Assembly: GCA_938036665.1 (NCBI GenBank)
Contig: CALHWR010000108.1
Location: 1-22,472, forward strand
Length of the DNA stretch: 22,472 bases
DNA from: an uncultured Collinsella sp.
GTDB lineage: Bacteria; Actinomycetota; Coriobacteriia; Coriobacteriales; Coriobacteriaceae
Direction: 5' to 3'
The stretch's first letter is position 1. Each line of letters begins with the position of its first letter. Below the pieces are notes generated by a model that worked only from the letters and a program-made list of their open reading frames with translations, was not told where the DNA came from and did not search any database. The translations under genes and the position numbers were made by a program. This document shows, piece by piece, positions 1 through 17,969 of the stretch.

Positions 1-1998
1 GTTGGAAATCGTCCAGCAGACATCCAAATCAAGGAATTTCTGCAAGCTGATCGGTGCAATGCCGACTTTGGCGCGCAGAGTCACACCGCTGTCCGTCACC
101 TGATATTCGGTGCGGTAGGCGTTGGTCATACAGTGGTCGTAGCGGGCAGCCAGCCAATCCAGCTTCAGCTTGCGGTCATTGTCCGTAGGAGCACGCCAGA
201 TGTTGAACTCCATTTCCTTGTCCAACAGGACTGCATCCTCGTACTGCATCGCGGCGAACAGACCCGTCAGCTTATTAAAGTTGTAGGTGAAGTTCTTGCC
301 GCGCAGCGTCAAATGGCGGTCCGTCTCCTGAACAGTGATTGTGCTGTTGGAAGAGGCATCACTCCACATAGCCAAGGTTTTCTGGTTGCGGCTGTCTTCG
401 TTTTCCAGCAGGATTTCATCAAAACCCAGAAGATGATCTTCCGAACGCAAGGACAGGTCTTTATCGCAATGGTAGAAGATTTTCAGGAAACACTTGCCTT
501 TATCGGGAATATGGACGGCCAACGGCAAGGCGTTTTCACTGTGCGGCGGCAGGGTGAAACCGTGAGGGTAAGGGATGAAGCCGTTGTCGATGACCTCGCC
601 GTCGCAACTTACCTGATAGGTTAGTGCGGCATACTCGGTCAAATCAACAAAGTCCATGTAGTTGTGCAACGTGAGCATGCCGGATTCCCGGTCGTACTTC
701 ACAACACGCGCCGGGCGATAGACGTTCTTGAACTCCAACAGCCCGGTGTGCGGGCGGCGGTCGGGGTAAACCAGACCGTCCATGCAGAAGTTGCCGTCAT
801 GCGGCCACTCATTGTGGTCGCCGCCGTAATAATAGATGCCGCGGCCGTCTGGCATCTTCCCTTTATAAATACCGTGGTCGCACCACTCCCACAGGAAACC
901 GCCGACCAAGCCATCATGGCTCTGAATGAACTGGAAGTAATCCTCCAAATCGCCGGGGCCGTTGCCCATGCAGTGGCTGTACTCGCACATGATATAGGGT
1001 TTGTCCGGCTCGTTGTCCAGATATTCCTGAATGCTTTCGAGAGAAGGGTACATATTGCTGAACATATCAATGTTCGAGAAATCGTATTTACGGTTCTTGC
1101 TGCGGTACTGGGCGCTCTCGTAGTGGGTCAGGCGGCGGGGGTCAAAACTCTTTGTCCATGCCAGCGCTTCTTCGAACGTGCAGCCGTAGGCGCTCTCGTT
1201 GCCCATCGACCAGATGATGACGCAGGGACGGTTCTTGTCGCGCTCCACGCAGCGGCGGGTGCGGTCTACGGTGGCCTCGGTGAACTCCGGGTTGTCTGCG
1301 ATGGGCTTGTTCCAGTTTTCAACGTGGTTGGGCCAGCTTTCGTTGCCCTCGCAATAGTATTCGGACGCACCGTGGCTCTCGTTGTCGGCTTCATCAATGA
1401 CAAAGAAGCCGTACTGGTCGCAGAGTTGATAGAAGTAAGGCACATCCGGGTAATGGCTGGTGCGGATGGCATTAAAGTTGTGCTTTTTAATCATGAGCAG
1501 GTCTTTTTTCGTCTGCTCAAAGCCAACAGCATATCCCGTGACGGGGTCGGATTCGTGGCGGTTTACACCGTGGAACTTGATGGACTGGCCGTTGACATAA
1601 ATCTGGTTGTTGGCAACATGAACCTCACGGATGCCCACACGGTCCGTAATAGTCTCGTTGGGCGTGTCCAACACAAGGGTATATAAGTAGGGCTGCTCTG
1701 CGTTCCAGAGTGTCGGGTCAACAATGGTGATTTCTGCATGATAGGGGAATTCCGCATCATCCGGTGCTTCCACGGGCGTTACGCTGCCGACCATCGTGCC
1801 GGCTGCATCGTAGAGGGTGATGCGGGTGGCAACGGCGGAATCGTAGTAACGCAGGCGGACAGCAACCTCTGCGGTGCTGCCGTGGATGTCGGTGGTGATG
1901 AAATAGTCCTCGATGCACTGTTCCGGTCGGTGCAGCAGGTAGACATCACGGAAAATGCCGCTCATGCGGAATTTGTCCTGGTCCTCAAAGTAGCTGCC
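1..1998 (-). other. lacZ: LacZ-type GH2 beta-galactosidase segment of the chimera (N-terminal domain missing, C-terminus beyond the left edge)
   Basis: The segment is a LacZ-type glycoside hydrolase family 2 enzyme, which hydrolyses lactose and other beta-galactosides. It begins where E. coli LacZ is at about residue 195, so the N-terminal sugar-binding jelly-roll domain is missing. Visible landmarks, in order, are GIFRDVYLLHRPEQ, GVNRHESDP, HNFNAIRTSHYPD, the acid/base WSMGNES (Glu codon 1195-1197) and the nucleophile MCEYSHCMGN (Glu codon 982-984). The sequence then enters the C-terminal beta-sandwich region and is still open at base 1. The wording of the motifs resembles Firmicutes LacZ, and its GC is clearly lower than that of its neighbours. 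That suggests foreign DNA or another organism's contig. Confidence 0.85.
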
Positions 1999-3435
1999 GT
2001 CCAGCTCACCACGCAGCTCCTCGTACACCGGGCCGTACTTGAGCGCCAGCGTCGCGGCGTCGTCATCGTAGAGCCAGGTGCTCAGCGCATCGCACGCAAT
2101 GGCCACGCCGTCGGCGATACCGTAGTCGCGCTGGCGCAGATCGTACTCGTTGCTGCTGATGATGGCCTCTAGGCGCTCGCGCGGAACGCCGTGCTCGCAC
2201 AGGTCGCGGCAAGCGTCCTGGAATACGCGACGCAGCTCGCGCGCCACGCCGGGCTGCGCATTTTGCAGCATGATGAGCTCGTAGGGCTGCAGGCTCTCGG
2301 CCGCGGTGTAGCTCACCACGTTGCCGCCCAGTCCGGCGGCAAGAACGGCCTTCTTAACCGGTGCCTCGTTGGAACCTAGCAGTGCCTCGAACAGGATATC
2401 CGCCGCGATCGTGCGCTTGCGGTCGAGCGCGCTGCCCAGCACAAGGCCCAGGCCCACCAAGGCGTTCTCGGGTGTGGTGGCCATCTCGATGCGCTTGTAC
2501 TCGCAGGTCACGGGCGCCTGCACGCCCAGTGGATTGGGTGCCAGCGTGGACGGGTCCTCGCCGGCGGCAACGGCTGCGTCCATGCGGCGGCTTGCGGCGC
2601 TCGGCTGCGACAGGTAGCGCTCGTTCAAAAAGGCTAACGCGCGGTCCACGTCCAGGTCGCCGTAGAGCGTGATGTAGGAGTTGGAAGGATTGTAGTGGCG
2701 CGCGTGCGTGTCCAGGAACTGCTCGTAGGTGAGCGCAGGAATCGCGCGCGGGTCGCCGCCGCTTTCGTGCGCATAGGCGGTGTCGGGATAGAGCGCGGCG
2801 TTGACGGCGTCGTCCAGCACGCTCATGGGGTCGGACAGCGCGCCCTTCATCTCGTTGAACACCACGCCGTTATAGCGCAGCGTGCCCTCGCGCAGGCTCG
2901 CGGAGCTGTCGCCGTCCTCGCCCTCGGCGCCCTCTGGCAGGTCCAGCTCGTAATGCCAGCCCTCCTGCTCAAAAATGGTGGGTTTGGTATAGATGGCCGG
3001 GTTGAACACCGCGTCCAGGTACACGTCTATCAGGTTGTACAGGTCCTGCTCGTTGGTGGTGGCAACGGGGTAGATGGTCTTGTCGGGGTAGGTCATGGCG
3101 TTGAGGAACGTCTGCATGGAGCTCTTGATCAGGTCCACGAACGGTTCCTTGACGGGGAACTTGGCCGATCCGCACAGCACCGAGTGCTCAAGAATATGGA
3201 ACACGCCGGTGGAATCGGCCGGCGGCGTCTTGAAGCCAATGGCAAAGGCCTTGTTTTCATCGTCGCATGCCAGGTACAGCAGGCGAGCGCCCGATGCGGT
3301 GTGGCGCAGCACGTAGGCGTCCGAGTCGAGCTCGGGCACGGTCTCGCAGCGCTCGACGGCAAAACCGTGACAGATGGTACCGGGCACCAGCAGTGCGGTA
3401 ACAGCGGCGCGCGGGTCGGTTGAGGTGGTGGGCAT
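1..3435 (-). CDS. Chimeric open frame: N-terminal half of an M16C metallopeptidase joined in frame to a GH2 beta-galactosidase (partial, runs off left edge)
   Basis: A single uninterrupted minus-strand frame runs from ATG at 3435-3433 to base 1, 1145 codons with no stop. The start is backed by AAAGGAG seven bases upstream. Residues 1 to about 483 are an M16C (presequence-protease-like) peptidase with the inverted zinc motif HILEH at residues 80-84 and the third ligand Glu195 in NEMKGALSDP. From about residue 484 the sequence becomes LacZ (EDQDKFRMSGIFRDVY), with acid/base Glu747 in WSMGNES and nucleophile Glu818 in CEYSHCMGN. A normal M16C protein is near 1000 residues and a normal LacZ has about 190 residues before this point, so each partner lacks half or an end. 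GC also changes: 44 of 60 bases in 2521-2580 against 26 of 60 in 421-480. I infer an assembly chimera more readily than a functional fusion. Confidence 0.85.
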   Translation of the reverse strand, partial: MPTTSTDPRAAVTALLVPGTICHGFAVERCETVPELDSDAYVLRHTASGARLLYLACDDENKAFAIGFKTPPADSTGVFHILEHSVLCGSAKFPVKEPFVDLIKSSMQTFLNAMTYPDKTIYPVATTNEQDLYNLIDVYLDAVFNPAIYTKPTIFEQEGWHYELDLPEGAEGEDGDSSASLREGTLRYNGVVFNEMKGALSDPMSVLDDAVNAALYPDTAYAHESGGDPRAIPALTYEQFLDTHARHYNPSNSYITLYGDLDVDRALAFLNERYLSQPSAASRRMDAAVAAGEDPSTLAPNPLGVQAPVTCEYKRIEMATTPENALVGLGLVLGSALDRKRTIAADILFEALLGSNEAPVKKAVLAAGLGGNVVSYTAAESLQPYELIMLQNAQPGVARELRRVFQDACRDLCEHGVPRERLEAIISSNEYDLRQRDYGIADGVAIACDALSTWLYDDDAATLALKYGPVYEELRGELDGSYFEDQDKFRMSGIFRDVYLLHRPEQCIEDYFITTDIHGSTAEVAVRLRYYDSAVATRITLYDAAGTMVGSVTPVEAPDDAEFPYHAEITIVDPTLWNAEQPYLYTLVLDTPNETITDRVGIREVHVANNQIYVNGQSIKFHGVNRHESDPVTGYAVGFEQTKKDLLMIKKHNFNAIRTSHYPDVPYFYQLCDQYGFFVIDEADNESHGASEYYCEGNESWPNHVENWNKPIADNPEFTEATVDRTRRCVERDKNRPCVIIWSMGNESAYGCTFEEALAWTKSFDPRRLTHYESAQYRSKNRKYDFSNIDMFSNMYPSLESIQEYLDNEPDKPYIMCEYSHCMGNGPGDLEDYFQFIQSHDGLVGGFLWEWCDHGIYKGKMPDGRGIYYYGGDHNEWPHDGNFCMDGLVYPDRRPHTGLLEFKNVYRPARVVKYDRESGMLTLHNYMDFVDLTEYAALTYQVSCDGEVIDNGFIPYPHGFTLPPHSENALPLAVHIPDKGKCFLKIFYHCDKDLSLRSEDHLLGFDEILLENEDSRNQKTLAMWSDASSNSTITVQETDRHLTLRGKNFTYNFNKLTGLFAAMQYEDAVLLDKEMEFNIWRAPTDNDRKLKLDWLAARYDHCMTNAYRTEYQVTDSGVTLRAKVGIAPISLQKFLDLDVCWTISN
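1984..3435 (-). other. M16C peptidase segment of the chimera (N-terminal ~480 residues, C-terminal half missing)
   Basis: This segment matches insulinase/PreP-like M16C peptidases, which degrade peptides inside a closed chamber made of two homologous halves. Only the first half is here. It carries the zinc site His80, Glu83, His84 and Glu195, and then a second subdomain up to the stretch WLYDDDAATLALKYGPVYEE, which belongs to the inter-half region of this family. The second half, which closes the chamber, is absent, so this stretch alone should not give a normal enzyme. Its GC and codon use match the rest of the window, so it is probably the native host gene. Confidence 0.85.
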
Positions 3436-3624
3436 ATGCAGTCTCCTTTGACGCCCCAGCGGGGGCGAATCGAGTCGAATCCTCGAGAGTATACCCATAT
3501 GGGGCCGCAGCTCTGCGGCGAACTGGCAACGATATTGGTGGACGGCTGTGCTGGGTTGACGGCGCATGCCGCGGGTAGCCGCTGCACCCCGCTAAAGTGA
3601 AATAACACCCCGTTTACCGAATCA

Positions 3625-3649
3625 TTTAGGAAATATATGGACTCCTAAA
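3625..3649. promoter_or_regulatory. Inverted repeat overlapping the putative gntR promoter
   Basis: TTTAGGA (3625-3631) and TCCTAAA (3643-3649) are perfect inverted arms separated by 11 bases. A plausible promoter overlaps them: ATGGAC (3637-3642), 16 bases, then TACAAT (3659-3664). An inverted repeat covering the -35 box upstream of a GntR gene is a reasonable autoregulatory operator, but that role is inferred only. Confidence 0.4.
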
Positions 3650-3714
3650 AAGTTCTAATACAATATAAATCAACTATCTATAACCTGCTGATTCCTTGCA
3701 AAGGTATGGTTGAT

Positions 3715-4419
3715 ATGGTTGAAGCAAATAGCGTTATCCCCCTGTACAAACAGATTGTCCGTGCGCTTTCTGATTCGATCGCCAACGGCACGTACCGTCC
3801 GGGAGATAAGCTCCCGACCGAGGCGGAGCTTATCGAGCAATTTGGCGTGAGCCGAATAACGGTTCGCTCCGCAATTAAAGAAATGGAAGATGCTGGGCTT
3901 GTTGAGAGAGCCCGCGGCAAGGGCACGTTCGTTTCGTCGGACACACAGATGTATGCCGCGGACGACCGTGAGAGCTTTACCCATTCGTGCCAACTTGCGG
4001 GAAAAAAGGCGTCTACCAGGGTTCTCGAAATGGGCTGGGACTTCCCAAGCCTGCGAGACGCGAAGTTCCTGGGCGTAGACGATACCCAAAAGGTATTGCG
4101 TAGTCGTCGTCTGCGCCTTGTGGATGGCAAGCCCACGATGCTGGAAACCAATAGCTATTCCGCTGCGCTTTCTTTTTTGGAGCACGAATCCCTCGATGAT
4201 TCGCTGATGGCGGTACTCGATCGCCAGGGGATCAAGATGGGTCCCAACACGCGTACGCTCGAGGTCTGCTATGCGAGCGAGCTCGAGGCGGCATACCTTA
4301 ACGTGGAGCTGGACTCTTCGCTGCTTCTGTTTGTCGATAGACGTTATGCTCCAAGCGGCGAGCCGCTTTTCATCTCCCGTCAGGTGTACTGCACCGAGCG
4401 ACTGAAGTTCTACTTGTAA
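3715..4419 (+). CDS. GntR-family transcriptional regulator with UTRA domain (HutC-type)
   Basis: This is a 234-residue DNA-binding regulator. Residues about 6-70 form the GntR winged helix-turn-helix (IPLYKQIVRALSDSI, then PTEAELIEQFGVSRITVRSA, ending GKGTFV). The rest is a UTRA ligand-binding domain, ending LFISRQVYCTERLKFYL. UTRA domains usually sense small phosphorylated sugars or related metabolites. I chose the ATG at 3715 because AAAGG (3700-3704) lies 10 bases before it; the in-frame ATG at 3706 would leave one base of spacing. The gene lies directly upstream of a co-directional PTS/deglycase operon, so its likely job is to derepress that operon when the phosphorylated substrate accumulates. 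This is inference from context. Confidence 0.92.
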   Translation: MVEANSVIPLYKQIVRALSDSIANGTYRPGDKLPTEAELIEQFGVSRITVRSAIKEMEDAGLVERARGKGTFVSSDTQMYAADDRESFTHSCQLAGKKASTRVLEMGWDFPSLRDAKFLGVDDTQKVLRSRRLRLVDGKPTMLETNSYSAALSFLEHESLDDSLMAVLDRQGIKMGPNTRTLEVCYASELEAAYLNVELDSSLLLFVDRRYAPSGEPLFISRQVYCTERLKFYL

Positions 4420-4430
4420 ATTAGAGATAG

Positions 4431-4452
4431 ATTGGTCGGTTTACCGACCAAT
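4431..4452. promoter_or_regulatory. 22-bp perfect palindrome between gntR and the PTS genes (operator or terminator)
   Basis: ATTGGTCGG (4431-4439) and CCGACCAAT (4444-4452) form a perfect 9-bp inverted repeat around TTTA. No T-run follows, which argues against a classical intrinsic terminator. It starts 12 bases after the gntR stop and lies upstream of the PTS promoter region. The half-site TTGGTC resembles HutC-type operator halves, but the spacing differs from the NagR/DasR site. It could be an operator or a weak terminator. Confidence 0.5.
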
Positions 4453-4500
4453 TGTTACCGTTCGCGGATTTGGAAAATAGACACACCACGTAGGGCAGAT

Positions 4501-4509
4501 TGCTAATAT
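4501..4509 (+). promoter_or_regulatory. Candidate extended -10 promoter for the PTS genes
   Basis: TGCTAATAT fits an extended -10 (TG-N-TAATAT) in an AT-rich patch, 46 bases before the EIIA start. No convincing -35 box is seen at the right distance, as extended -10 promoters allow. Other AT-rich hexamers nearby (TATAGT at 4525) are alternatives. Confidence 0.35.
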
Positions 4510-4554
4510 ACTTTGTTATGACAATATAGTACGTCCTATTGGTATTGGAGAACT

Positions 4555-4974
4555 ATGAATAAGATATTGCTAGCGAGTCATGGTTATCTCGCCCAAGGCA
4601 TGAAAAGCTCTCTGGAGATTCTGATGGGCACCAACGACCGAATCGAGTGCCTGTGCGCCTATGTCGATGACGATTCAAGGGACGTCGCGGCGTTGATTGA
4701 TGCATGGATGGAGACGAGGGACCCTGCCGACTCTTGGTTTGTCGTGACTGACATCTTTGGCGGCTCTGTAAACAACGAATTCATTCAGAGACAGACCACC
4801 GGATCGTTTACGTTGATTACCGGAATGAACTTGCCGCTGCTGGTGGAAATGGTTACACAGCTGGATTCCCTGGATGCGGACAAGGCCAAAGCCGCGGTCG
4901 AGGGGTCGCGTCCGTTTATTCAGCTTTGCGAGGCGGCGGACATGCTTGCCGGCGCCGAGGAAGAAGAGTTCTAG
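4555..4974 (+). CDS. PTS mannose/fructose/sorbose-family EIIA component
   Basis: This is a 139-residue soluble phosphocarrier that takes phosphate from HPr and passes it to EIIB. It shows the EIIA-Man fold signature: phospho-acceptor His9 in ILLASHG and the TDIFGGSVNN motif (residues about 64-73). The length is normal for a stand-alone EIIA domain. GGAG (4547-4550) lies four bases before the ATG. It is the first gene of the PTS set, and EIIB follows after 70 bases. The C-terminus is strongly acidic (AGAEEEEF). The substrate cannot be read from EIIA; the downstream deglycase points to a phosphorylated Amadori compound. Confidence 0.93.
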   Translation: MNKILLASHGYLAQGMKSSLEILMGTNDRIECLCAYVDDDSRDVAALIDAWMETRDPADSWFVVTDIFGGSVNNEFIQRQTTGSFTLITGMNLPLLVEMVTQLDSLDADKAKAAVEGSRPFIQLCEAADMLAGAEEEEF

Positions 4975-5044
4975 TTAGTTCTGGTTCGAGCCCTAGCTAA
5001 GGGCCACGCCTGTCATTCCTTTATCACGTGCGGAGATGATAACG

Positions 5045-5518
5045 ATGATTAAGCTTACGAGAGTTGATTACCGACTGATTCACGGCCAAGTTGCCATGTC
5101 CTGGACTCACGCTTTGGATGTAGATTGCATCCTGCTTGCCAGCGATGCTGTGGCAAAAGACGACATGAGGAAGGCGGCCTTGAGGCTCGCCCGCCCCAGC
5201 GGCGTTAAACTCGTCATCAAGGATGTTGACGCTGCTATCGAGGCGCTCAACAGCGGCGTTACCGACAAGTATTCGCTGTTTATCATCACTGAGACGATTG
5301 AAGATGTCTATCGTCTCGCTAAGGGTTGCAAAGACATCAAAGAGATCAATCTGGGTGGAACCCGAAAGACCCCTGAGACCACGCTTCATCCGACCCCTGC
5401 AATCTTTGCGACCGAGAAAGATGCCGAGCATATCCAAGAGCTCCTGGGCGATGGCGTGGCCGTCGAAATCCGTCAGGTTCCCAATGACGCTAAGGTGTTT
5501 GCCAAGGACGTTTTTTAG
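5045..5518 (+). CDS. PTS mannose/fructose/sorbose-family EIIB component
   Basis: This is a 157-residue EIIB that accepts phosphate from EIIA and phosphorylates the incoming substrate on the EIIC/EIID complex. The N-terminus MIKLTRVDYRLIHGQV is the family signature and contains the phosphorylated His13. I prefer the ATG at 5045: GGAG (5032-5035) lies nine bases before it, but directly abuts the alternative ATG at 5036. The C-terminal region has the expected VEIRQVPND stretch. A strong terminator follows 53 bases after the stop, so this gene probably closes a first transcript with EIIA. Confidence 0.93.
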   Translation: MIKLTRVDYRLIHGQVAMSWTHALDVDCILLASDAVAKDDMRKAALRLARPSGVKLVIKDVDAAIEALNSGVTDKYSLFIITETIEDVYRLAKGCKDIKEINLGGTRKTPETTLHPTPAIFATEKDAEHIQELLGDGVAVEIRQVPNDAKVFAKDVF

Positions 5519-5571
5519 CCGAAAACATGCTGGTGTTCGGTATTTATTGAGCCGATACTCTATGTCTATGT

Positions 5572-5603
5572 CCGTCGATCATTTGATCGGCGGGCTTTTT
5601 ATT
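5572..5603 (+). terminator. Rho-independent terminator inside the PTS operon, after EIIB
   Basis: The stem CCGTCGATC (5572-5580) pairs with GATCGGCGG (5585-5593), with one T-G wobble and a four-base loop, and is followed by GCTTTTTATT. This is a textbook intrinsic terminator between EIIB and the deglycase, so it should stop or attenuate readthrough from the upstream PTS promoter. Confidence 0.85.
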
Positions 5604-5634
5604 AAAGAAAAATCAAAAAAATCTGAAATAGTTC

Positions 5635-5662
5635 TTGCATAGTTAGTTATATAAAGTATTAT
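5635..5662 (+). promoter_or_regulatory. Promoter for the deglycase gene
   Basis: TTGCAT (5635-5640), a 16-base spacer and TATTAT (5657-5662) make a good sigma-70-type promoter. It lies about 30 bases after the EIIB terminator and 51 bases before the deglycase start, in a clearly AT-rich stretch. Transcription would start near 5669. Confidence 0.7.
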
Positions 5663-5671
5663 AACGTCATG

Positions 5672-5692
5672 GGATGAATGAAGGGTTCATCC
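5672..5692 (+). promoter_or_regulatory. Inverted repeat at the start of the deglycase transcript
   Basis: GGATGAA (5672-5678) and TTCATCC (5686-5692) are perfect 7-bp arms around a seven-base loop. They lie at the predicted transcription start and just before the ribosome-binding site AGGAG (5702-5706). It could be an operator at the start site or a 5' stem-loop that stabilises the mRNA; the sequence does not decide. Confidence 0.45.
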
Positions 5693-5712
5693 AAGTGAGT
5701 TAGGAGTAAGGG

Positions 5713-6747
5713 ATGTTCAATTTCGATGAGCCTCGTTACGAGAAGGTTGTGAGCGATGCCCTCGCTCTCCGTCCTCAGATTGAGGCTGCCGTGGACAAGG
5801 TCTGCGAGCAGGGTTATTCCAACATCTTCTTCATCGGCTGCGGCGGCACCTGGGCCCACACGCTCCCGATGAAGTATTGGGTCGAGACCACCACGGCCGA
5901 CGTCGACGTCCACTGCGAGATCGCCGCTGAGTTCCTCGCATGCCCGCCCAAGACCTTCAACAAGGACTCGGTCTGCGTCTTCTCCACCCGCACCGGCACC
6001 ACCCCCGAGATCATCGAGGCCGCCAAGTTCTGCCAGGAGCAGGGCGCCCGCACGCTGATGTATGTCTCCAACGACAACACCCCGGCCACCGAGTACGCCG
6101 ATTACAAGTTCTTCAGCTTCGCCGAGGACGACGTTCTGTGCGAGGCCATCTATACCTACCAGATCACGCTGGTTGCCCGCTTCCTCAAGAACGCCGGCGC
6201 CTTCCCCAAGTACGACACCTTCATGGAGGAGTTCGGCAACATCGCTCCGTACCTCATCAAGGCCAAGGACGCTCAGGACGAGCGCTGCGCCGCCATGGCC
6301 GAGGACTTCAAGGACACCGACTACCACATGGTGATTGGTTCCGGCATGCTCTGGGGTGAGGCCTACGACTACGCTATGTGCATTCTCGAGGAGATGCAGT
6401 GGATCAAGACCAAGTCTATCCACGCCGCCGAGTTCTTCCACGGCACCATCGAACTGTGCGAGGAGGGCACGAGCCTCATCATGCTCTACGGCGAGGACGA
6501 CACCCGTAAGCTCATGGACCGCGTGGACAACTTCACTCACATGCTCGCCGACGAGAAGAGCGTCCATGTCCGCGTGAACAAGTTCGACACCGCCGAGGTC
6601 GAGCTGCCGTTCAGCGACCCCGAGTTCCGCAAGATCGTCTCCCCGATGGTCACCTACACCATCACCGAGCGTCTGAGCTGCCATCTCGAGCACGTCCGTA
6701 ACCACCCGCTCACCACGCGTCGTTACTATCACCAGATGAACTACTAA
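5713..6747 (+). CDS. SIS-domain sugar-amine-phosphate deglycase, FrlB/GfrF-like
   Basis: This 344-residue protein has two SIS domains (about 35-165 and 205-335). FrlB-type enzymes hydrolyse fructoselysine 6-phosphate to glucose 6-phosphate and lysine; GfrE/GfrF and FraB act on related Amadori phosphates. The first SIS domain shows IGCGGTWAH and the phosphate loop STRTGTTPE. Glu227 and His243 (in EFFHG) are 16 residues apart, the spacing of the catalytic pair in FraB (Glu214/His230) and GlmS (Glu488/His504). The C-terminus TRRYYHQMNY is typical of the FrlB group. AGGAG lies six bases before the ATG. Codons are strongly C-ending compared with the PTS genes, suggesting high expression, in keeping with its own promoter. 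No separate sugar kinase is present, as expected when the PTS does the phosphorylation. The exact substrate is uncertain. Confidence 0.85.
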   Translation: MFNFDEPRYEKVVSDALALRPQIEAAVDKVCEQGYSNIFFIGCGGTWAHTLPMKYWVETTTADVDVHCEIAAEFLACPPKTFNKDSVCVFSTRTGTTPEIIEAAKFCQEQGARTLMYVSNDNTPATEYADYKFFSFAEDDVLCEAIYTYQITLVARFLKNAGAFPKYDTFMEEFGNIAPYLIKAKDAQDERCAAMAEDFKDTDYHMVIGSGMLWGEAYDYAMCILEEMQWIKTKSIHAAEFFHGTIELCEEGTSLIMLYGEDDTRKLMDRVDNFTHMLADEKSVHVRVNKFDTAEVELPFSDPEFRKIVSPMVTYTITERLSCHLEHVRNHPLTTRRYYHQMNY

Positions 6748-6768
6748 TCCTCTCAAATTGCTGCGGTT

Positions 6769-6807
6769 GTCTGCAGGCGAGCTGCGCAGAATGCCTCGCC
6801 TGCAGAC
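6769..6807 (+). repeat. 13-bp perfect inverted repeat between the deglycase and EIIC
   Basis: GTCTGCAGGCGAG (6769-6781) and CTCGCCTGCAGAC (6795-6807) are perfect inverted arms around 13 bases, and the loop itself contains the palindrome CTGCGCAG. No T-run follows. It fills the gap between the deglycase stop and the EIIC start, so it could partially terminate transcription, or protect the deglycase mRNA from 3' decay and so lower EIIC/EIID relative to the enzyme. Confidence 0.75.
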
Positions 6808-6828
6808 CTGTTTCTGGGGTTGATCGAA

Positions 6829-7602
6829 ATGGTTGTCCAGTATCTTCTAGTTGCACTGGTCGCATTTATTGCGTCCATGGACGAGCAATTATTTGGCATT
6901 ACGATGCTTGGTCGTCCGCTGTTTACGAGCCTGTTTGTCGGCTTGATTCTTGGCGATGTCCAGCAGGGCGTTATCGTCGGCGCTGCTTTGGAGTCCATGT
7001 TCATGGGCGCCATCATGGTCGGCGCGGCGGTTCCTCCCGAGGTCTATGCCTCCGGCGTGCTTGGCTGCGCGTTTGCCGTCATTACGGGTACGGGCACGGC
7101 AACTGCCGTCGCACTCGCCCTTCCCGTCTCCGTCTTCCTTCAGGTGTGGCGCAACTTCTGCTACGCCGTTCCGGGTGCCTTTGCCTGCAAGAAGATTGAG
7201 ACCGCTCTGGCAAATCGTGATCTTGCCAAGGCGAATCTGTACCATCTGACCATCGTTCCGTTGTCGATTGGCATTCCGTCTGCACTGCTGGTGTTTTGCT
7301 CGCTGTTCTTTGGTGCCGACCTCATCAACAATGCGCTCAACGCGATTCCGCAGTTTGTGATGGATGGCCTCAACGTTGCGTCCGGCGTCATGGTCTGCAT
7401 CGGCTTCGCACTTCTTATCAGGACTATGGGCGATAACAAGCTTCTTCCCTGGCTGTTCCTGGGATTCATTATGGTCATCTACCTCAAGATGGACGTTATC
7501 GGTGTTGCCGCTGCCGCTATCTGCGTTGCGCTGCTCCTGGCATTCCGCGAAGGCTCGGCCGGTCCGCAGGCGGTTGCCGAAGATGAAGAGGAGGACTTCT
7601 AA
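6829..7602 (+). CDS. PTS mannose/fructose/sorbose-family EIIC component
   Basis: This is a 257-residue integral membrane protein that forms the substrate channel with EIID. It opens with a hydrophobic segment (MVVQYLLVALVAFIASMDEQ) and contains the family-typical region LFTSLFVGLILGDVQQGVIV followed by GAALESMFMG. Further hydrophobic helices run to about residue 240, and the tail is acidic (AEDEEEDF). I prefer ATG 6829 over the in-frame TTG at 6820 because GGGG (6816-6819) lies nine bases before the ATG and the TTG would have no spacing. Its TAA overlaps the EIID ATG by one base, so the two subunits are probably translationally coupled. Confidence 0.92.
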   Translation: MVVQYLLVALVAFIASMDEQLFGITMLGRPLFTSLFVGLILGDVQQGVIVGAALESMFMGAIMVGAAVPPEVYASGVLGCAFAVITGTGTATAVALALPVSVFLQVWRNFCYAVPGAFACKKIETALANRDLAKANLYHLTIVPLSIGIPSALLVFCSLFFGADLINNALNAIPQFVMDGLNVASGVMVCIGFALLIRTMGDNKLLPWLFLGFIMVIYLKMDVIGVAAAAICVALLLAFREGSAGPQAVAEDEEEDF

Positions 7603-8450
7603 TGGCTACCCAGAACACCGATCTCAAAGAGGCCAAGAAGGACGCGATTATGACTCCCGATATGTATCGGAGCATGTTCCTTCGCCAGTTTACGAGCCAG
7701 TGCTCGCAGTCGTACGACAAGATGATGGCAATGGGCTTCATGTACACCATTCAGAAGCCCCTGCGAAAGATCTATCCCAACGACGACGATTACTATGCGG
7801 CGCTCGACCGCCATACCGAGTTCTTTAACGTCACGCCTCATGTGCTTCCGTTTGTAGCCGGCCTAACGGTTTCGATGGAAGAGCAGGCGGCTGCCGATAA
7901 GAACTTCGACACGTCCTCGATTAACGCCATGAAGGTCGGCCTCATGGGACCGCTTTCCGGCATCGGCGATTCGTTCTACTGGGGTACGTTCCGCGTGGTC
8001 GCCGCCGGCATTGGTATTGGCATCGCTTCGACGGGCAACCCGCTCGGCCCCATCGTGTACGCGCTCATCTACTCGGTGATTAACTTTGCAACGCGTATCG
8101 TCGCAGCCCATCTTGGTTACGACCTGGGAACCAAGTTCTTGCAGCAGTCCGAAGAGAACAACCTTATGTCTCGCATGACGCATGCTGCTGGTGTCCTCGG
8201 AATGACCGTTATCGGCGCCATGATTGCGGCACAGGTCTCGCTGTCCACGGCTTTGACCTTTGACGTGGGTGGTTCGGAGATTGTCCTGCAGGATCTGTTC
8301 GATTCGATCTTCCCCGGTCTGCTGCCCTTGCTGGCAACCTTTGCCTGCGTCGCCCTGTACAAAAAGGGCGTCAAGACCATTTGGATCATCTTGGGCATCT
8401 TTGCGATCTGCATCATCGGAACGGGCTTGGGAGTGTTCGCGGCGGCGTAA
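7602..8450 (+). CDS. PTS mannose/fructose/sorbose-family EIID component
   Basis: This is a 282-residue membrane subunit that pairs with EIIC. Family features are the N-terminal MYRSMFLRQFTSQCSQSYDKMMAMG-type helix region, the HTEFFNVTPHVLPFVAGLTVSMEE segment, the GLMGPLSGIGDSFYWG motif (about residues 112-127), and C-terminal hydrophobic helices ending GTGLGVFAAA. The GAGGAGG ribosome-binding site lies inside the end of the EIIC gene, and the TAATG overlap implies coupled translation. Together with EIIA, EIIB and EIIC it makes a complete four-component mannose-type transporter. It ends the operon; a large hairpin follows 25 bases later. Confidence 0.94.
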   Translation: MATQNTDLKEAKKDAIMTPDMYRSMFLRQFTSQCSQSYDKMMAMGFMYTIQKPLRKIYPNDDDYYAALDRHTEFFNVTPHVLPFVAGLTVSMEEQAAADKNFDTSSINAMKVGLMGPLSGIGDSFYWGTFRVVAAGIGIGIASTGNPLGPIVYALIYSVINFATRIVAAHLGYDLGTKFLQQSEENNLMSRMTHAAGVLGMTVIGAMIAAQVSLSTALTFDVGGSEIVLQDLFDSIFPGLLPLLATFACVALYKKGVKTIWIILGIFAICIIGTGLGVFAAA

Positions 8451-8475
8451 AGCCAACGGCAACAAATGATATTAG

Positions 8476-8515
8476 GTGGCACCGGGCCGGGATTGTCTTC
8501 CCGACCCGGTGCCAC
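8476..8515. terminator. Large hairpin between convergent genes (likely shared terminator)
   Basis: A 17-base arm (8476-8492, starting GTGGCACCGGG) pairs with 8499-8515 with a single C/A mismatch and a six-base loop. It sits 25 bases after the EIID stop and two bases beyond the stop of the convergent minus-strand gene. Neither side has a good T-run, so it is a very stable hairpin terminator of the less canonical kind. Confidence 0.65.
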
Positions 8516-8517
8516 TG

Positions 8518-9021
8518 CTATTCTCCGACTTTGGCATTGATATCTGCGGTGCCATTCATCAAGAACAGCCTAAGAACCAGCTTGATGACATATCCCGGTT
8601 TGACTTCAGCCGCGCCAAAGACGCTGCGCTCGGCGAGCTCGCTGCAGTATGCATAGATGTCGCGGATAAGGTCCGCGCCCGAGAGCGTAAACATGTAGCC
8701 TGCGTCCGAAAGCGCATTGGGCGCGGCGGGCAACTTGGCCATGTGGCAGAACGTTTGCAGGTCGGGCGCCATAACATTCTGGTAGTCGAGGTGGCCGCTG
8801 GCATCCTGTGCGGCAAGCTCCAATTGGCGCACAAAATCCAGCGCCGCCGCTAACACAAAGCTCGGCGTAGGCGCATTGACGTCCTGAGTGGTCGCCACAA
8901 GCCTGCCCGCTGCCTGCGTGACAAGCCAAGCGACCTCGCGCTGGCAACGCACGGCCTTGCGCGTCACCGGCTTAATGGACGAAGAAGAAACGCTCCCCTT
9001 AGGCGGATTCGAAGCAGCCAT
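8518..9021 (-). CDS. Conserved-looking hypothetical protein, 167 aa
   Basis: I do not recognise the family. The start at 9021 (MAASNPPKG) is supported by GGGAGGG five bases upstream. A longer in-frame start near 9069 lacks such a site. The protein has a Ser/Lys-rich N-terminus (SVSSSSIKPVTRKAVR), then a mostly helical body with no signal peptide or long membrane segment. The body includes REVAWLVTQAAGRLVATTQ and a C-terminal hydrophobic stretch, KPGYVIKLVLRLFLMNG. Codon use matches the surrounding genes, so it is probably a real cytoplasmic protein. It stands alone, convergent with the PTS operon. Confidence 0.7.
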   Translation of the reverse strand: MAASNPPKGSVSSSSIKPVTRKAVRCQREVAWLVTQAAGRLVATTQDVNAPTPSFVLAAALDFVRQLELAAQDASGHLDYQNVMAPDLQTFCHMAKLPAAPNALSDAGYMFTLSGADLIRDIYAYCSELAERSVFGAAEVKPGYVIKLVLRLFLMNGTADINAKVGE

Positions 9022-9069: not shown

Positions 9070-9450
9070 GTGCTACATCAGTATACAGGGGAGTGGGGTA
9101 GTGGGGTACAAGCGCGCCAGCGGCAAACCGAGAGCATCAACGATGTGCCTCCGCTCTATTTGGATGACGGTACGTGGGTCATTAAGTACTCGGTTCAAGC
9201 GCCGGGCACCGTTGGTTTTCGAGACCAGAATCACAACCGTAAAATGCTCAACTGCATGGAATGTGGCGTCCCAGTCGGAGTCATACTTGCAACCGAGGTG
9301 AGCTATAAGGTGCTCGGCCTTGCGTTTGTTGAGCGGTTCGAGCTCGAAAACGGATGGTTTGGACCCAATACGGTGTTTCTTGAGGCCCATTGCATTGAGT
9401 TCGATCGCTCGGAAAAGAAGCGTGAAAAGGCGGGGCTTCTGCCGTATTAG
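9070..9450 (+). CDS. Small protein resembling an isolated SRA/PUA-like domain of HNH-type nucleases (possible remnant)
   Basis: The frame encodes 126 residues from a GTG at 9070. No good ribosome-binding site precedes it; a GTG at 9145 with GAGAG upstream is an alternative start. The stretch PPLYLDDGTWVIKYS, then NHNRKMLNCMECGVPVGV, then YKVLGLAFVERFE with a following NGWF, resembles the DNA-binding domain found beside HNH nuclease domains in ScoMcrA-like restriction proteins. This family call is from memory of motif patterns and is tentative. No HNH domain follows, and the upstream DNA is occupied by a divergent gene, so it is either a stand-alone domain or a decayed nuclease. Confidence 0.5.
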   Translation: MLHQYTGEWGSGVQARQRQTESINDVPPLYLDDGTWVIKYSVQAPGTVGFRDQNHNRKMLNCMECGVPVGVILATEVSYKVLGLAFVERFELENGWFGPNTVFLEAHCIEFDRSEKKREKAGLLPY

Positions 9451-9572
9451 CGTATTTGGCTTTGGCGGTCTTTTACGATCGTGTTGTTTGATCGGATCGC
9501 GTGGCGATGCAATCTCGCGCACGCCTGCCGGTGCATGCTCTTCCTGATTTGTATAGCGAGAGGGGAGCGAGC

Positions 9573-9857
9573 GTGAGCTGGCGAGGCGATATTGCGATGG
9601 GGAAGTACGGAAAACTGCCGTGTGCCCTTATAGACAACAAAATGTTTCCGAGCGTAGAAGTTGATTGCGGGTCGTTTGTCGTCGCCTGTCCTTGCTGCGG
9701 CTCGCAAATACCGTGCCTCGACATTCGGTTCATCGATGCGCGCGACAGACTTAGCGACGAAGTGAGAAAACGGACAGGCGTTCATATGCCGGTGTATTCG
9801 GAGAAATGCCCTGTTTGTGGCCTCGATATCGTGTACGACGCCGGCGACGAGGGATAG
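9573..9857 (+). CDS. Small zinc-ribbon-like protein, 94 aa
   Basis: I do not recognise the family. The start chosen is GTG 9573, with GGGGAG five bases upstream; the frame is open further upstream to a GTG at 9501 and has an internal ATG at 9597. The protein has two CxxC pairs, Cys39/Cys42 in ACPCCGSQIPC and Cys79/Cys82 in KCPVCG, spaced as in zinc ribbons. No membrane segment is seen. It follows the SRA-like ORF by 122 bases on the same strand. It is likely a nucleic-acid- or protein-binding zinc protein, but no function can be given. Confidence 0.55.
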   Translation: MSWRGDIAMGKYGKLPCALIDNKMFPSVEVDCGSFVVACPCCGSQIPCLDIRFIDARDRLSDEVRKRTGVHMPVYSEKCPVCGLDIVYDAGDEG

Positions 9858-9894
9858 GTGATGCAGAGGAGTTGGCTGCGAGTGTCTTTTGCCT

Positions 9895-10581
9895 CTACAA
9901 ATAAATCCCCTCACCGAGTTGCTTGTGGAACTCGGCGTGATGGTCGCGTGCCCAGGTAAAGAGCGCCTGGTCAAAGTCGGTACGCGTGGCCGGGACGCCA
10001 AAGACGCCGGCAACTTCGACGCGTATAAACTCCAGTGCCGGCAGCTTGTTGATGGCAGTGAGGGCAAACGGGGACGAGGGCTCCTCGAACAGATAGCGGC
10101 TGCCTTGCAGCGCGTCGCAACTGGCGCACGTGTTGCCGAGCGACGGGGCTTTGGAGGCTCGCGCGCCTACGGGCTTGTAGCCGCAGCGCTTATGAAGGTA
10201 GTCGCGGATCTCGCCCGGCACGCAGCCAAGAGCGGGCACGATGGCGAGTGCGTTGGCGTTGACCGTGTCGATGGCAATGTGCCCGGCTTCGTTGGGCGCG
10301 TGCGCGATGGCGATGCTCTCGTCGTTATCGGCTCGATAGGGAATGCCGAAGGCCGCGACCGAGGTTTCTTTGTGACACTTCCAGCACTCGCGCTTGCCCA
10401 GTACTAGATATATATACGGCGCTGAGGGGTCGGATCGGTCAACACCGGGCAGCCACTCGGCAAAGGGTTCGGGGTTGACGCCACTGGGCACATACCAGAT
10501 CTTCTTGGTCCGGTCCCATTTGGCGCCCAGCGCCTTGGCTTCTTCTTTGTGCGAAAAGGGGACATCGAGCTCGGTGCGCAT
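9895..10581 (-). CDS. DUF5710 domain protein with two CxxC pairs, 228 aa
   Basis: The N-terminus (LDVPFSHKEEAKALGAKWD, then KKIWYVP) is a DUF5710 domain, a short module also found at the ends of DNA primases and conjugative proteins; its role is unknown. The ATG at 10581 is preceded by AAGGAG five bases upstream. Cys66/Cys69 (CWKC) and Cys152/Cys155 (CASC) could bind one zinc ion. Between them lies a region with three histidines. The C-terminal part (TDFDQALFTWARDHHAEFH) looks helical. The frame stays open far upstream through the tRNA gene, but that extension is not coding. It is convergent with the small zinc-ribbon gene. Confidence 0.8.
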   Translation of the reverse strand: MRTELDVPFSHKEEAKALGAKWDRTKKIWYVPSGVNPEPFAEWLPGVDRSDPSAPYIYLVLGKRECWKCHKETSVAAFGIPYRADNDESIAIAHAPNEAGHIAIDTVNANALAIVPALGCVPGEIRDYLHKRCGYKPVGARASKAPSLGNTCASCDALQGSRYLFEEPSSPFALTAINKLPALEFIRVEVAGVFGVPATRTDFDQALFTWARDHHAEFHKQLGEGIYL

Positions 10582-10777
10582 GGTGGCTCCTTGGTGCTGC
10601 AGGTGTAAGTGGCTCAAGGATACCGCAGGGCGCAGACATCGCGGCGTTTTGCTGAGGAGTTGCGGCTTGGATGGGTTCGAGACGCGTTGGCCTCGGCCTC
10701 GGTGGCTATTGACGCGGTTTTGTGCATGGGCAGGGTGGTTGCTTGGGCGGTTGGAGCAGCCAGCGGATTTGGCGACA

Positions 10778-10813
10778 TAAAACAAAACAGCCCAGAGGAC
10801 ATAGCCTCTGAGC
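10778..10813 (-). terminator. Intrinsic terminator of tRNA-Val
   Basis: Read on the minus strand, GCTCAGAGG pairs with CCTCTGGGC (one T-G wobble, six-base loop; 10790-10813), followed by TGTTTTGTTTT. It begins 11 bases after the tRNA 3' end. Confidence 0.85.
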
Positions 10814-10823
10814 TGCGAACATT

Positions 10824-10898
10824 TGGTGGGCGTTAGAAGATTTGAACTTCTGACCTCTTCCGTGTCAGGGAAGCGCTCTCCCCCTGAGCTAAACGCCC
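10824..10898 (-). tRNA. tRNA-Val, anticodon GAC
   Basis: The minus strand folds into a full cloverleaf. The acceptor GGGCGTT pairs with AACGCCC, and the D arm starts GCTCAGGGGGAGAGC. The anticodon stem CTTCC/GGAAG encloses the loop CTGACAC with anticodon GAC (bases 10864-10866). The T arm AGAAG-TTCAAAT-CTTCT and an encoded CCA end (10824-10826) complete it. It reads valine codon GUC (and GUU by wobble). Promoter and terminator are both visible, so it is a single-gene transcript. Confidence 0.97.
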
Positions 10899-10927
10899 GA
10901 TCAAGGGTGCGCAAGCGCGCAAGGGAT

Positions 10928-10956
10928 AATATAACGGAGCCTGAACTCGGTGGCAA
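10928..10956 (-). promoter_or_regulatory. Promoter of tRNA-Val
   Basis: On the minus strand TTGCCA (10956-10951), a 17-base spacer and TATATT (10933-10928) form a near-consensus promoter, with the -10 box 29 bases before the first tRNA base. Confidence 0.8.
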
Positions 10957-11187
10957 GAACATTTTTAAAAATCGCTTACATTGTGGAATTCGGGGGCTTT
11001 GTCGTATCCATTTCAAAAGAGCCTGCTGCCGCGATTTGGCTGTCGCATAATGCAAGGCCATTGCGGTATCGAGCTATGGAAAGACGCCTGCGGAATTGTC
11101 CTACCGATAAGCGGACAAGCCTCCAGCTGGTGACTTCGCCGTGGTAAGGTAAGCCGAATTGTTTCCAGACTGTTTCGGGGGAGTGGA

Positions 11188-12210
11188 ATGAGCAAAGAGT
11201 GTGTCGAGCAGGTCGAAGGCGCAGGGGCTTCGGTGCCGATGACCGATATATCGAACATTGATGTGCCCGAGGGCACCGACGAGCTCAGCCGTAGCACCCG
11301 CCGCGCCTGGCGCGGGCGTCTGAACAGCGCTTCGACGCGCAAGATGATCACGGGCGTCTTGGCTACGCTGGTGGGCGGTTCGTTTTGGGGCTTCTCGGGC
11401 ACCAGCGCGAGTTTTCTGTTCGATACCTACCACGTCGATACCTTGTGGCTTATGAGCGTGCGTCAGATTCTCGCCGGTCTACTCTTTATGGCCGTGGTTG
11501 TTACGCGCGACCGCGAGCGCCTGATTAAGCTCTGGACCACACCCGCCGATTGCAAGCAGCTGCTGCTCTTTACCGCCTTTGGCCTGCTGTTCAACCAGTT
11601 TTGCTATCTTTCGGCCGTGCGCCTGACGAACGCCGGAACCGCGACGGTGCTCCAGTGCCTGCAGCTTGTTATCATCATGGGCTACACCTGCGTGATCGAT
11701 TGCCGCATGCCTCGCGTGCGTGAGGCCGTTGGCATTGGGTTGGCCCTGGGCGGCACCTTTTTAATCGCTACCGGCGGCGACCCTACCAGTCTGAGCATAT
11801 CGCCGCTTGGCCTGGTCGCAGGCCTTATGTGTGCGGTCAGCGCCACGTGTATGGCGGTGATTCCCGCCAAGATCCTGCCCGAATACGGCAGCCCCATCGT
11901 CACGGGCTCGGCAATGCTCACGGCGGGCGTGGTCTCGTGCGTCTTCGTGCAGCCTTGGGCGCATATGCCGGCACTCGACGCTGCCGGCGTCGAGGCGCTC
12001 GCGGTATTCGTGGTTATCGGCTCGTTTTTTGCTTACATGCTCTATATGCAGGGCGTTAAGGACATCGGCTCGGTGCGTGCGAGCCTCATCGGAACTGTGG
12101 AGCCGGTTTCGGCGACCATCACCAGCGCCGTTATGCTGGGCACGGTGTTTTTGCCGACCGACCTTATCGGCTTTGCCATGATCATCGTGATGATGTTCCT
12201 CACGGTGTAG
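11188..12210 (+). CDS. EamA/DMT-superfamily transporter
   Basis: This is a 340-residue membrane protein of the drug/metabolite transporter superfamily. After a polar ~50-residue N-terminal extension it has about ten hydrophobic helices in two EamA repeats: the first from VLATLVGGSFWGFSGTSASF, the second from SPLGLVAGLMCAVSATCMAV. Each repeat ends near a conserved motif, LTNAGTATVLQ in the first and VRASLIGTVEPVSATI in the second. Such proteins export or import small metabolites, often amino acids, and substrates cannot be predicted from sequence. GGGGGAG lies four bases before the ATG. It is monocistronic as far as can be seen, with the DUF4012 gene 149 bases downstream. Confidence 0.92.
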   Translation: MSKECVEQVEGAGASVPMTDISNIDVPEGTDELSRSTRRAWRGRLNSASTRKMITGVLATLVGGSFWGFSGTSASFLFDTYHVDTLWLMSVRQILAGLLFMAVVVTRDRERLIKLWTTPADCKQLLLFTAFGLLFNQFCYLSAVRLTNAGTATVLQCLQLVIIMGYTCVIDCRMPRVREAVGIGLALGGTFLIATGGDPTSLSISPLGLVAGLMCAVSATCMAVIPAKILPEYGSPIVTGSAMLTAGVVSCVFVQPWAHMPALDAAGVEALAVFVVIGSFFAYMLYMQGVKDIGSVRASLIGTVEPVSATITSAVMLGTVFLPTDLIGFAMIIVMMFLTV

Positions 12211-12359
12211 CTGGCGCCGCCGCCAAGACAGAAAAGGTGTTGTGCCGCATTTTCGCCAATTGACGTCCGTGTCTGGAGTTTAGCTGTCGATGCTCAAAAT
12301 GCCATAAACTAGTAACGTTATGGATTTTTTCATTGCGACTCAATTGCGAGGATTTCTTT

Positions 12360-14672
12360 ATGGCTGGTAATCACTTTAAGGGCAGCGATAACGGCCGTCC
12401 TGCAGTTCCGCCGCGTCCGAACGGGGCTGGTAAGGCCGGCACGCCGGGCGGCGCTGGACAGGGCGGTTCCAGTAAGCGCGTGTCCCCGGGCGAGACGGCG
12501 ATGTTTACCGCTCTGTACGAGCAGTCTCAAAAGGCGAAAAAGACCGGCCGTGCAAGAGGGAATGTCTTTGCGGGCGGTGCAACCTCCGCGTCGCAGCCGA
12601 GCGGGGCTCCTTCGGTACCTGCGAACAACGCAGGTGCTGCCAACGCCGCAAATGCCGCCGGCAACGTTAATGCCGGCAAGGCCGCCAACAATACTCCCTC
12701 TGCCGGTGGCGCGGGGCTTACGGGTAACCTTGGCACGATTTACACCGGTGCCTCCGAGACTGGCACGTTCGCCCGCCTGGATGATAGCGGTGCCGAGTTT
12801 GCGGGCTCGGGTTCCAAGGAAGATTATTACGATTTTGGCTTGAACTACGGTAGCGACGCTTCGTCGAGTTCGACCTCTGACGGTCTGGTCCGTCATCGCC
12901 ATCGCAAGGGCGAACGCAAAAAGCGTCACACCGGCGCCATTATTGCCGCTGTAGTCGCGGTGCTTCTCGTTGCGCTTGGCGCAAGCGGCTTTATGCTGCT
13001 TAACTCGGCAAAGACCGTAAAGAGTGAAGCGAAGGAGGCCGTCGAGATTGTCGGTGGCCTTAAGGACAAGGTCACGTCGGGCGATTTTTCGACGCTGCCT
13101 GACGACGCGAAGAAGATTGATGAGCTTTGCGACAGCATGAAGGCGGAGACCTCGAGCCCGCTGTGGACGGCGGCTTCGTTTATCCCGGTGTATGGCAGCG
13201 ACATCAATGCGGCCCGCACCATGATCGACGCCCTGTCCGATGTCTCGAGCAATGCGCTGGTTCCCATGGCCGATAACCTTTCGCAGGCCACGCCCGGCAA
13301 GCTGTTTCAGGACGGCATGATTAACGTGTCCGCGCTGCAGGCGGTCGCCGATTCGCTTTCCAGCAGCTCGAAGGTGTTCAAGAGCGCCAACGAGAAGATC
13401 CAGGGCATTGGCGATACTCATATTTCCCAGGTGACCGAGCTGGTCGATAAGGCCAAGGACGGCTTTGCCACCCTCAACGGCGCGGTTGACGCGGCGGAGA
13501 AGGTCGCCCCCGTCCTTCCGCAGATGCTCGGCGCCAACGGCCAGACGCGCAACTACCTTGTGTACGCCATGAACAACGTCGAGATTCGTGCCTGCGGCGG
13601 CTTTGGCGGTTCGCAGGGCCTGATTTCGGTCACCGACGGCCAGATGTCGATTGGCGAGTTTGTTCCCCGCATTGGACTCAGCGAGGATGAGGCAGTCGAG
13701 AGCGTCGACGAAGAGGATGAGGCGCTGTTCGGCAACCACAGTAACCTGTACAACTCGGGCAATACCTATTCGCCTGATTGGCCCCGCAACTCGCAGCGTG
13801 TCGCAGCCCTGTGGAAATCTCAATATGGCCAGGACGTTGACGGCGTCGTGGGTATCGACCCGGTGTTCCTGCAGTATCTGCTGGGCCTGGTCGGTAACGT
13901 GTCGCTGCCCGACGGAACGGTTGTCGACGGCACCAACGCCGCAAAGGTCCTCATGCACGATGTGTACTGGAACTATCCGGTCGAGGAGTCGGACGGCATC
14001 TTTGCATCCGTCGCCAGCGCTGCCTTCGACAAGATCCTTGGCGGTATCGGCGATGTCGATGTTACGAAGCTTGTCAGCGCCGTTGAGCGCGGTGCCGAAG
14101 AGGGCCGCCTGATCGCGTGGATGAAAAACGATGACGAGCAGAACGCTATCAAGGAGATGAACATCGACGCCTCGCTGCCCGATCCGGATGACCCGAGTGA
14201 AGATCCCGTTGCTGGTGTCTACTTTAACAACCTGAGCTTCTCCAAGCTCGACTGGTACCTGAATGCCGATACGCAGATTGGCCAGGGCATCAAGAACGGT
14301 GACGGCACATGCTCGTATCGCATCACCGTTACCCTGACGAACATCATGACGCAGGAGGAGGCCGGCAAGCTGCCCGACTACGTCGCGGCGAGCGCGCCCG
14401 ATGCCGCGCGCGACGACGAGCGTCTGAATGTCTCGTTGTTTGCCCCGACGGGCGGCAACATTACTGATCTGACCGTCGAGGGCACCCAGTTTGGTCTTGG
14501 CGCCGCTACGTGGCATGGAATCCCCTTCTATTCGGGCACCGTTGACCTGCATGCTGGCGAGACGACGACGATCACATATACGCTGACCACGTCAGCCGAG
14601 GCGGGGGACAAGCCGCTTACGCTGCGTCAGACTCCTACATGCCAGGCGGCTCGCGACAGCGCGTCGGCGTAG
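12360..14672 (+). CDS. DUF4012 domain membrane-anchored envelope protein, 770 aa
   Basis: The N-terminal ~190 residues are low-complexity and cytoplasmic (Gly, Ala, Asn, Pro, Ser rich, e.g. NAGAANAANAAGNVNAGKAA). A basic cluster (RHRHRKGERKKRH) comes before one membrane helix at residues about 193-215. The remaining ~555 residues should be outside the membrane and carry DUF4012: FIPVYGSDINAARTMIDALS, then NYLVYAMNNVEIRACGGFGG. Actinobacterial DUF4012 proteins are predicted envelope proteins, and their biochemical role is unknown. I start at ATG 12360, with GAGG eight bases upstream; an in-frame TTG at 12333 has less support. It is followed by a terminator and then glmM. Confidence 0.88.
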   Translation: MAGNHFKGSDNGRPAVPPRPNGAGKAGTPGGAGQGGSSKRVSPGETAMFTALYEQSQKAKKTGRARGNVFAGGATSASQPSGAPSVPANNAGAANAANAAGNVNAGKAANNTPSAGGAGLTGNLGTIYTGASETGTFARLDDSGAEFAGSGSKEDYYDFGLNYGSDASSSSTSDGLVRHRHRKGERKKRHTGAIIAAVVAVLLVALGASGFMLLNSAKTVKSEAKEAVEIVGGLKDKVTSGDFSTLPDDAKKIDELCDSMKAETSSPLWTAASFIPVYGSDINAARTMIDALSDVSSNALVPMADNLSQATPGKLFQDGMINVSALQAVADSLSSSSKVFKSANEKIQGIGDTHISQVTELVDKAKDGFATLNGAVDAAEKVAPVLPQMLGANGQTRNYLVYAMNNVEIRACGGFGGSQGLISVTDGQMSIGEFVPRIGLSEDEAVESVDEEDEALFGNHSNLYNSGNTYSPDWPRNSQRVAALWKSQYGQDVDGVVGIDPVFLQYLLGLVGNVSLPDGTVVDGTNAAKVLMHDVYWNYPVEESDGIFASVASAAFDKILGGIGDVDVTKLVSAVERGAEEGRLIAWMKNDDEQNAIKEMNIDASLPDPDDPSEDPVAGVYFNNLSFSKLDWYLNADTQIGQGIKNGDGTCSYRITVTLTNIMTQEEAGKLPDYVAASAPDAARDDERLNVSLFAPTGGNITDLTVEGTQFGLGAATWHGIPFYSGTVDLHAGETTTITYTLTTSAEAGDKPLTLRQTPTCQAARDSASA

Positions 14673-14709
14673 GGTTTTTCTGGTAGCGCAGATAATCGAG
14701 TACCATTTT

Positions 14710-14743: not shown

Positions 14744-14755
14744 TAAGGAGAGCGC

Positions 14756-16113: not shown

Positions 16114-16127
16114 CTGCTCGACGCTGC

Positions 16128-16226: not shown

Positions 16227-16292
16227 TCGCTGACGTTGCCAAGACATTGGCGTCAACATAGTTGGCGTTGGCGATGGCGTGCTGGTCAATCC

Positions 16293-17962: not shown

Positions 17963-17969
17963 ATAGCCC

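Follow-up and report, generated by a model that had tools for sequence, protein, structure and literature searches.

A two-family reading frame at the start of the window

The stretch of DNA analysed here (22,472 nucleotides, referred to below as the window) is positions 1 to 22,472 of contig CALHWR010000108.1 of the uncultured Collinsella sp. assembly GCA_938036665.1, and our subject is a hybrid reading frame at its beginning and how it arose. The frame lies on the minus strand, is open from 3567 across an internal join to the window end at base 1, and has an ATG at 3435; read as 3435..1, it encodes residues 1-486 of an M16C peptidase followed in frame by a GH2 beta-galactosidase (product used as query, 1145 residues). 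Pfam placed Peptidase_M16 at residues 72-149 and Peptidase_M16_C at 235-427 of the product, and Glyco_hydro_2, Glyco_hydro_2_C, LacZ_4 and Bgal_small_N from residue 508 onward, the last of these over profile positions 2-96 of 248 only, where it is ended by the sequence end. Glyco_hydro_2_N stayed below its cut-off (residues 479-504, profile positions 138-169 of 169, 25 bits against 28), while the TIM barrel expected of a GH2 enzyme was recognized as Glyco_hydro_2_C with E=5.9e-92. The sequence HILEH (residues 80-84, bases 3198..3184) has the form HXXEH, which we take to be the zinc-binding motif of the M16 N-terminal domain, and WSMGNESAYG (1212..1183) and MCEYSHCMGNGPG (990..952) are the two LacZ motifs that presumably bear the catalytic glutamates. 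The families meet at DGSYFEDQDKF, residues 479-489 of the hybrid (bases 2001..1969). A preliminary description of this DNA had placed an in-frame change of family at GSYFEDQDKF, and the order of the Pfam domains, the limit of peptidase similarity at 1980 and a lacZ alignment over 1-2001 all agree with it.

The N-terminal half of the peptidase occupies 1980..3435 on the minus strand (residues 1-485 and the first base of codon 486), as delimited by Pfam, the alignment limit and HILEH, and is of Collinsella type. A search of 98 related genomes with the hybrid protein gave matches in 78. The best 22, all from the nearest genus, cover approximately residues 1-486 at 94-98% identity and lie in stop-free frames of 906-1119 codons; the intact M16C gene that the preliminary description had proposed to look for in relatives is thus present there. 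Matches pass residue 486 in four remote relatives, reaching residue 489 (G083), 497 (G076), 565 (G088) and 566 (G084), the last two in 978-codon frames and with 50-51% identity. In five relatives the peptidase continues beyond the join point as DGSYFED-LLREL, which is how the two halves are normally linked. In DNA comparisons, base 1980 is the end of the alignment with the window for 21 of the 21 peptidase loci of the nearest genus, of which three (L010, L011, L023) are exact to the window from 2007 to 1980, and 1920-1979 matches three checked loci at only 15-17 of 60 bases. The genome nearest to the window among those compared, G001, shares 59% of 31-letter words with it. Searches were also made against protein clusters at 90% identity, with the figures for the peptidase taken from the best 120 of 7987 proteins and those for the lacZ half from the best 120 of 7959. 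The former all cover 42-44% of the query, namely the peptidase part, and are mostly 1012-1014 amino acids long. They include P0008 ('peptidase M16') and P0028 ('insulinase family protein'), which are 98% identical to query residues 1-486 (42%) and whose names are the basis for assigning this parent to Collinsella; compared with them, the hybrid is devoid of the second half, including PF08367.

The beta-galactosidase part is an internal piece of a Gemmiger formicilis lacZ gene, at 1..1960 on the minus strand, delimited by alignment and ended by the sequence end. Scanning of genome contigs for lacZ yielded 16 loci, and the top two belong, according to the record titles, to G. formicilis MCC627 (L024) and An812 (L025). 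Identity to them is 99% and 97% for the protein of the lacZ half and 98.1% and 96.7% for the DNA of 1-2001, with 28 and 56 mismatches in 1-1960, respectively. The lacZ of L024 is intact (1023 codons), and bases 1-2001 align in reverse with its residues 853-187, numbers that were worked out by hand from the coordinates. Proteins matching the lacZ half have lengths of 791-1108 amino acids and carry no M16 domain among the best 120. Other matches to this half among the 98 relatives do not exceed 51% identity. A lacZ gene of Collinsella itself was considered as second parent or bridge and ruled out: that of G001 (L002) reads DGSYIEDQDMWWASGIF at the site, and the own lacZ genes of nine genomes of the genus (G001, G004, G007, G010, G011, G012, G027, G036 and G037) are 35-36% identical to the window. 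The separate search of the halves suggested in the preliminary description therefore leads to different organisms, Collinsella for the peptidase and G. formicilis for lacZ.

As the preliminary description also held, neither partner is complete, the hybrid comprising residues 1-486 of a peptidase of mostly 1012-1014 and LacZ residues 187-853 of 1023. An M16C peptidase is a chain of about 1000 residues with both halves and PF08367; in the hybrid the homology stops at residue 486, and Pfam did not find PF08367, which is listed for the intact relatives. Similarly, LacZ residues 1-186 and 854-1023 are missing, and with them complete N-terminal sugar-binding and C-terminal domains. M16C enzymes require both halves to close on the substrate, and LacZ requires its N-terminal domain for assembly. 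Judging from the sequence, neither peptidase nor LacZ activity would be expected of the hybrid, because the peptidase lacks its second half and LacZ its first 186 residues, and the gene is probably devoid of biological function.

A shift of composition at the join had also been put forward. The mean G+C content is 54.5% in 1-1960 and 65.0% in 1980-3435, and the counts per 60-base segment are 21-44 (mean 32.8) in 1-1979 and 30-48 (mean 39.0) in 1980-3435. The two counts originally quoted, 44/60 in 2521-2580 and 26/60 in 421-480, are correct, but they come from picked segments and the ranges on the two sides overlap.

Some observations were made on the lacZ genes of Gemmiger themselves. In G518, of the Gemmiger genus group, lacZ carries an insert of about 1357 bases (L085:2649-4005, G518:C1:2305948-2307304), with the break at approximately window position 1356-1360; the insert contains a transposase-like open reading frame of 307 amino acids, which we take to be of IS3 type. 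In the draft genome of G. formicilis ATCC 27749 two contigs stop within lacZ, at the equivalents of window positions 1833 and 1838, and in one of them (L038:5225-5738) a 448-base lacZ piece is joined at QYTNIRYPF to unrelated sequence with the frame open. Either lacZ is an assembly trouble spot in that draft too, or it is rearranged. Furthermore, three beta-galactosidases look mosaic: P0125 and P0126 have a different N-terminal half and then near-identical Gemmiger sequence from NRHESDPVTGYAVGFEQT, and P0127 begins with Gemmiger-like sequence that gives way to another near KNVYRP. These are either further chimeras or products of natural recombination.

Sequence at the joint

The peptidase and beta-galactosidase alignments overlap in 1980..2001 (minus strand), where the window reads GACGGCAGCTACTTTGAGGACC, encoding DGSYFED plus one base. 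These 22 bases were compared by coordinates in the 21 peptidase loci and in three lacZ loci. The peptidase loci are identical to the window in three cases, have one difference in 16 and three differences in two; the lacZ loci differ from it at two (L071), four (L081) and six (G. formicilis L024) positions. L071 comes from a further genome in the genus group to which L024 belongs; it shows 1-5 differences from the peptidase loci, sharing up to 21 of 22 bases with them, while L024 differs at 5-7 and shares 17 of 22 at best, non-contiguously. The suggestion in the preliminary description that 17-20 bases may be common to both parents is thus about right for M16C and L071, but not for the G. formicilis lacZ L024. 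Among eight gene pairs, compared over frames as contained in the loci and in several cases cut by the locus flanks, the joint is the best 22-base match in three (L004 with L071, L011 with L071, L004 with L081) and tied for best in one (L011 with L081).

Directly beyond the overlap lies a patch, 1961..1979 on the minus strand, that is unlike either main parent. Over 1979-1961 the window has the same four mismatches (1961, 1972, 1973 and 1975) to L024 and to L025, and the same four differences are seen in L038, L039 and L069, which are other G. formicilis-like copies. The patch is lacZ-like in translation, reading QDKFRMS in the window for QDMFRMN in G. formicilis LacZ, and DMFRMN also occurs in seven close proteins (P0121-P0124, P0127, P0128 and P0145). 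Bases 1980-1960 are, on the other hand, identical in the lacZ genes L077 and L081, from two genomes of the family sampled around the Lachnospiraceae record L030; the exact 32-base runs of L077/L081 with the window are 1980..1949 and 1986..1955. Below 1960, L024 has no other 19-base stretch with more than two differences. The binomial chance of at least four mismatches in 19 bases is 1.4e-4 at the L024 rate and 1.8e-3 at the L025 rate, values that presume independent sites and a stretch chosen beforehand and that serve as a guide only.

It seems, from these comparisons, that a third, bridging lacZ was involved at the joint, one that the preliminary description had not proposed. A direct joint of two parents, which was considered as well, is weakened by the patch, since a single crossover between two parents would not yield it.

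The remaining Collinsella-group DNA

From 1980 to 22472 the window matches Collinsella-group genomes piecewise and in order, with short gaps between the pieces, and the foreign part is therefore confined to the terminal 1979 bases. Window positions 3402-8450 correspond in one piece to G008:C1:905415-900365 (96%), overlapping the match of the intact peptidase at G008:C1:905382-906839. At 8451-8557 the window is without about 2 kb that are present in G008, and 8558-9149 matches about 2 kb further along; 9362-16086 (96%) and 16268-22472 (92%) are found, likewise in order, on that G008 contig. Compared with G001, positions 10748-22025 are 97% identical.

The genes next to the peptidase on the Collinsella side, 3706..8450 on the plus strand, are colinear with the intact peptidase locus of G008 and, judging from their translations, presumably encode a regulator and sugar-PTS/SIS-like proteins. 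In G008 and G024 the peptidase is flanked by almost all of the regulator and sugar-PTS-like block of 3507-8556, most of which is without a near match in G001; the block looks strain-variable. In addition, approximately 16085-16253 and 19415-19516 matched in part at numerous dispersed places in each of three Collinsella-group genomes. They are probably dispersed repeat families, and no Rfam family reached its gathering score in either. A tRNA-Val (anticodon gac) is located at 10824-10898 on the minus strand.

Origin of the hybrid frame

The fusion was sought in several collections. No match spans both halves in the 98 relatives, the farthest reach from the peptidase part being residue 566 of 1145, and the fusion is absent from the best 120 proteins of each protein search. 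Two joint patterns were each sought in the nearest genus and occurred in 0 of 43 genomes. A 33-base core of the joint was met at seven places, in six of the 348 genomes searched from the family to which the L030 genome belongs, with one or two mismatches and never exactly, and a 38-base piece had no exact match in viral_contigs. A fusion of this kind was also not evident in the titles and opening lines of abstracts of literature joining Collinsella, Gemmiger, horizontal gene transfer and beta-galactosidase.

On the strength of these comparisons, the hybrid frame is very probably an inter-species chimera produced in assembly, located where a metagenomic Collinsella sequence ends. The preliminary description had preferred a misjoin in the assembly graph, and it is supported in this by parents from two organisms, by intact genes elsewhere, by the failure to find the fusion and by the terminal position of the foreign part. 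The assembler, proceeding along the Collinsella contig from 22472 towards lower positions, would have left the peptidase gene at 1980 by way of a short stretch that encodes DGSYFED in the peptidase and DGSY(L/M)EDQD in lacZ genes. The path would then have run for some 20 bases along lacZ words from a different gut bacterium, whose bridging lacZ would be expected to read CAGGACAAATTCCGCATGAGC, and ended on the G. formicilis lacZ until the contig stopped. Such an order, from M16C through the lacZ of another bacterium to that of G. formicilis, is one that a graph of small k would permit. We infer that the assembler made the joint, with short shared words as its route and a third lacZ as the source of the patch. 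Graphs linked through shared sets of k-mers may give chimeric contigs, as PMC7299287 states, and a section heading of PMC10174551 puts the misassembly rate in real metagenomes at 3-12%. The case resembles the inter-species chimeric contig, in MetaQUAST terms an interspecies translocation, in that two organisms meet at a stretch common to related genes, the foreign part is terminal and no copy exists in the genomes searched or among the best-ranked proteins. It differs from the typical contig of that class in its route, which seems to include a fragment of a third gene, and in a frame that happens to stay open.

Several results weigh against this explanation. The bridging allele was not recovered in exact form; longer joint patterns occurred in 0 of 394, 0 of 297 and 0 of 2 genomes. 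L025 has up to six differences per 19 bases elsewhere in lacZ; Gemmiger lacZ alleles can differ in clusters, and the patch could thus be an unsampled allele. Furthermore, the joint is not the best 22-base match in four of the eight gene pairs (L004 and L011, each with L077 and L024), and no exact word of at least 15 bases common to peptidase and lacZ loci was found at the joint in the set of loci compared for this.

The hybrid could instead be real, a very recent microhomology-mediated recombination of a G. formicilis lacZ into a Collinsella peptidase gene, and the joint, in frame and codon-aligned at DGSYxED, would suit such an event, as would the up to 21 of 22 bases that M16C and the lacZ of L071 share there and the fact that Collinsella and G. 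formicilis both live in the gut. We nevertheless consider it very improbable that this occurred, and equally improbable that there is a Collinsella lineage in which recombination across phyla has fused an M16C catalytic half in frame with the greater part of a LacZ from Gemmiger, at some 20 codon-aligned bases common by chance to two unrelated families. The G. formicilis lacZ L024 differs from the peptidase loci at 5-7 of 22 bases at the joint, a site that is not among the four best 22-base matches of L024 to the peptidase, and the product would lack the regions noted above. The patch would call for one more event or for a donor allele that has not been seen; fitting neither parent and fitting another lacZ, it makes a single recombination less suited than a path through short words in a graph. 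The fusion was not found in the relatives searched, and a mobile element as carrier was rejected, megablast of 1-3600 against the plasmid and phage collections having given no match. A chimera formed in the laboratory, through template switching in PCR or in multiple displacement amplification, we regard as slightly less probable still: switching at a short similar sequence gives the same type of joint, but a chimeric molecule, being rare, would not usually prevail in a contig, and two switches would be required to account for what looks like a third-source patch.

Under the assembly-chimera explanation, the open frame is due to the codon alignment of the similar words (DGSY-x-ED) in both genes and not to selection on the product, of which it is no evidence. 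An artefact of this kind matters for quality control: with a frame open across a codon-aligned motif, gene callers may report a new two-domain protein, and it may be misread as gene transfer between phyla. Were the hybrid real, it would clearly exemplify a fusion across phyla at microhomology.

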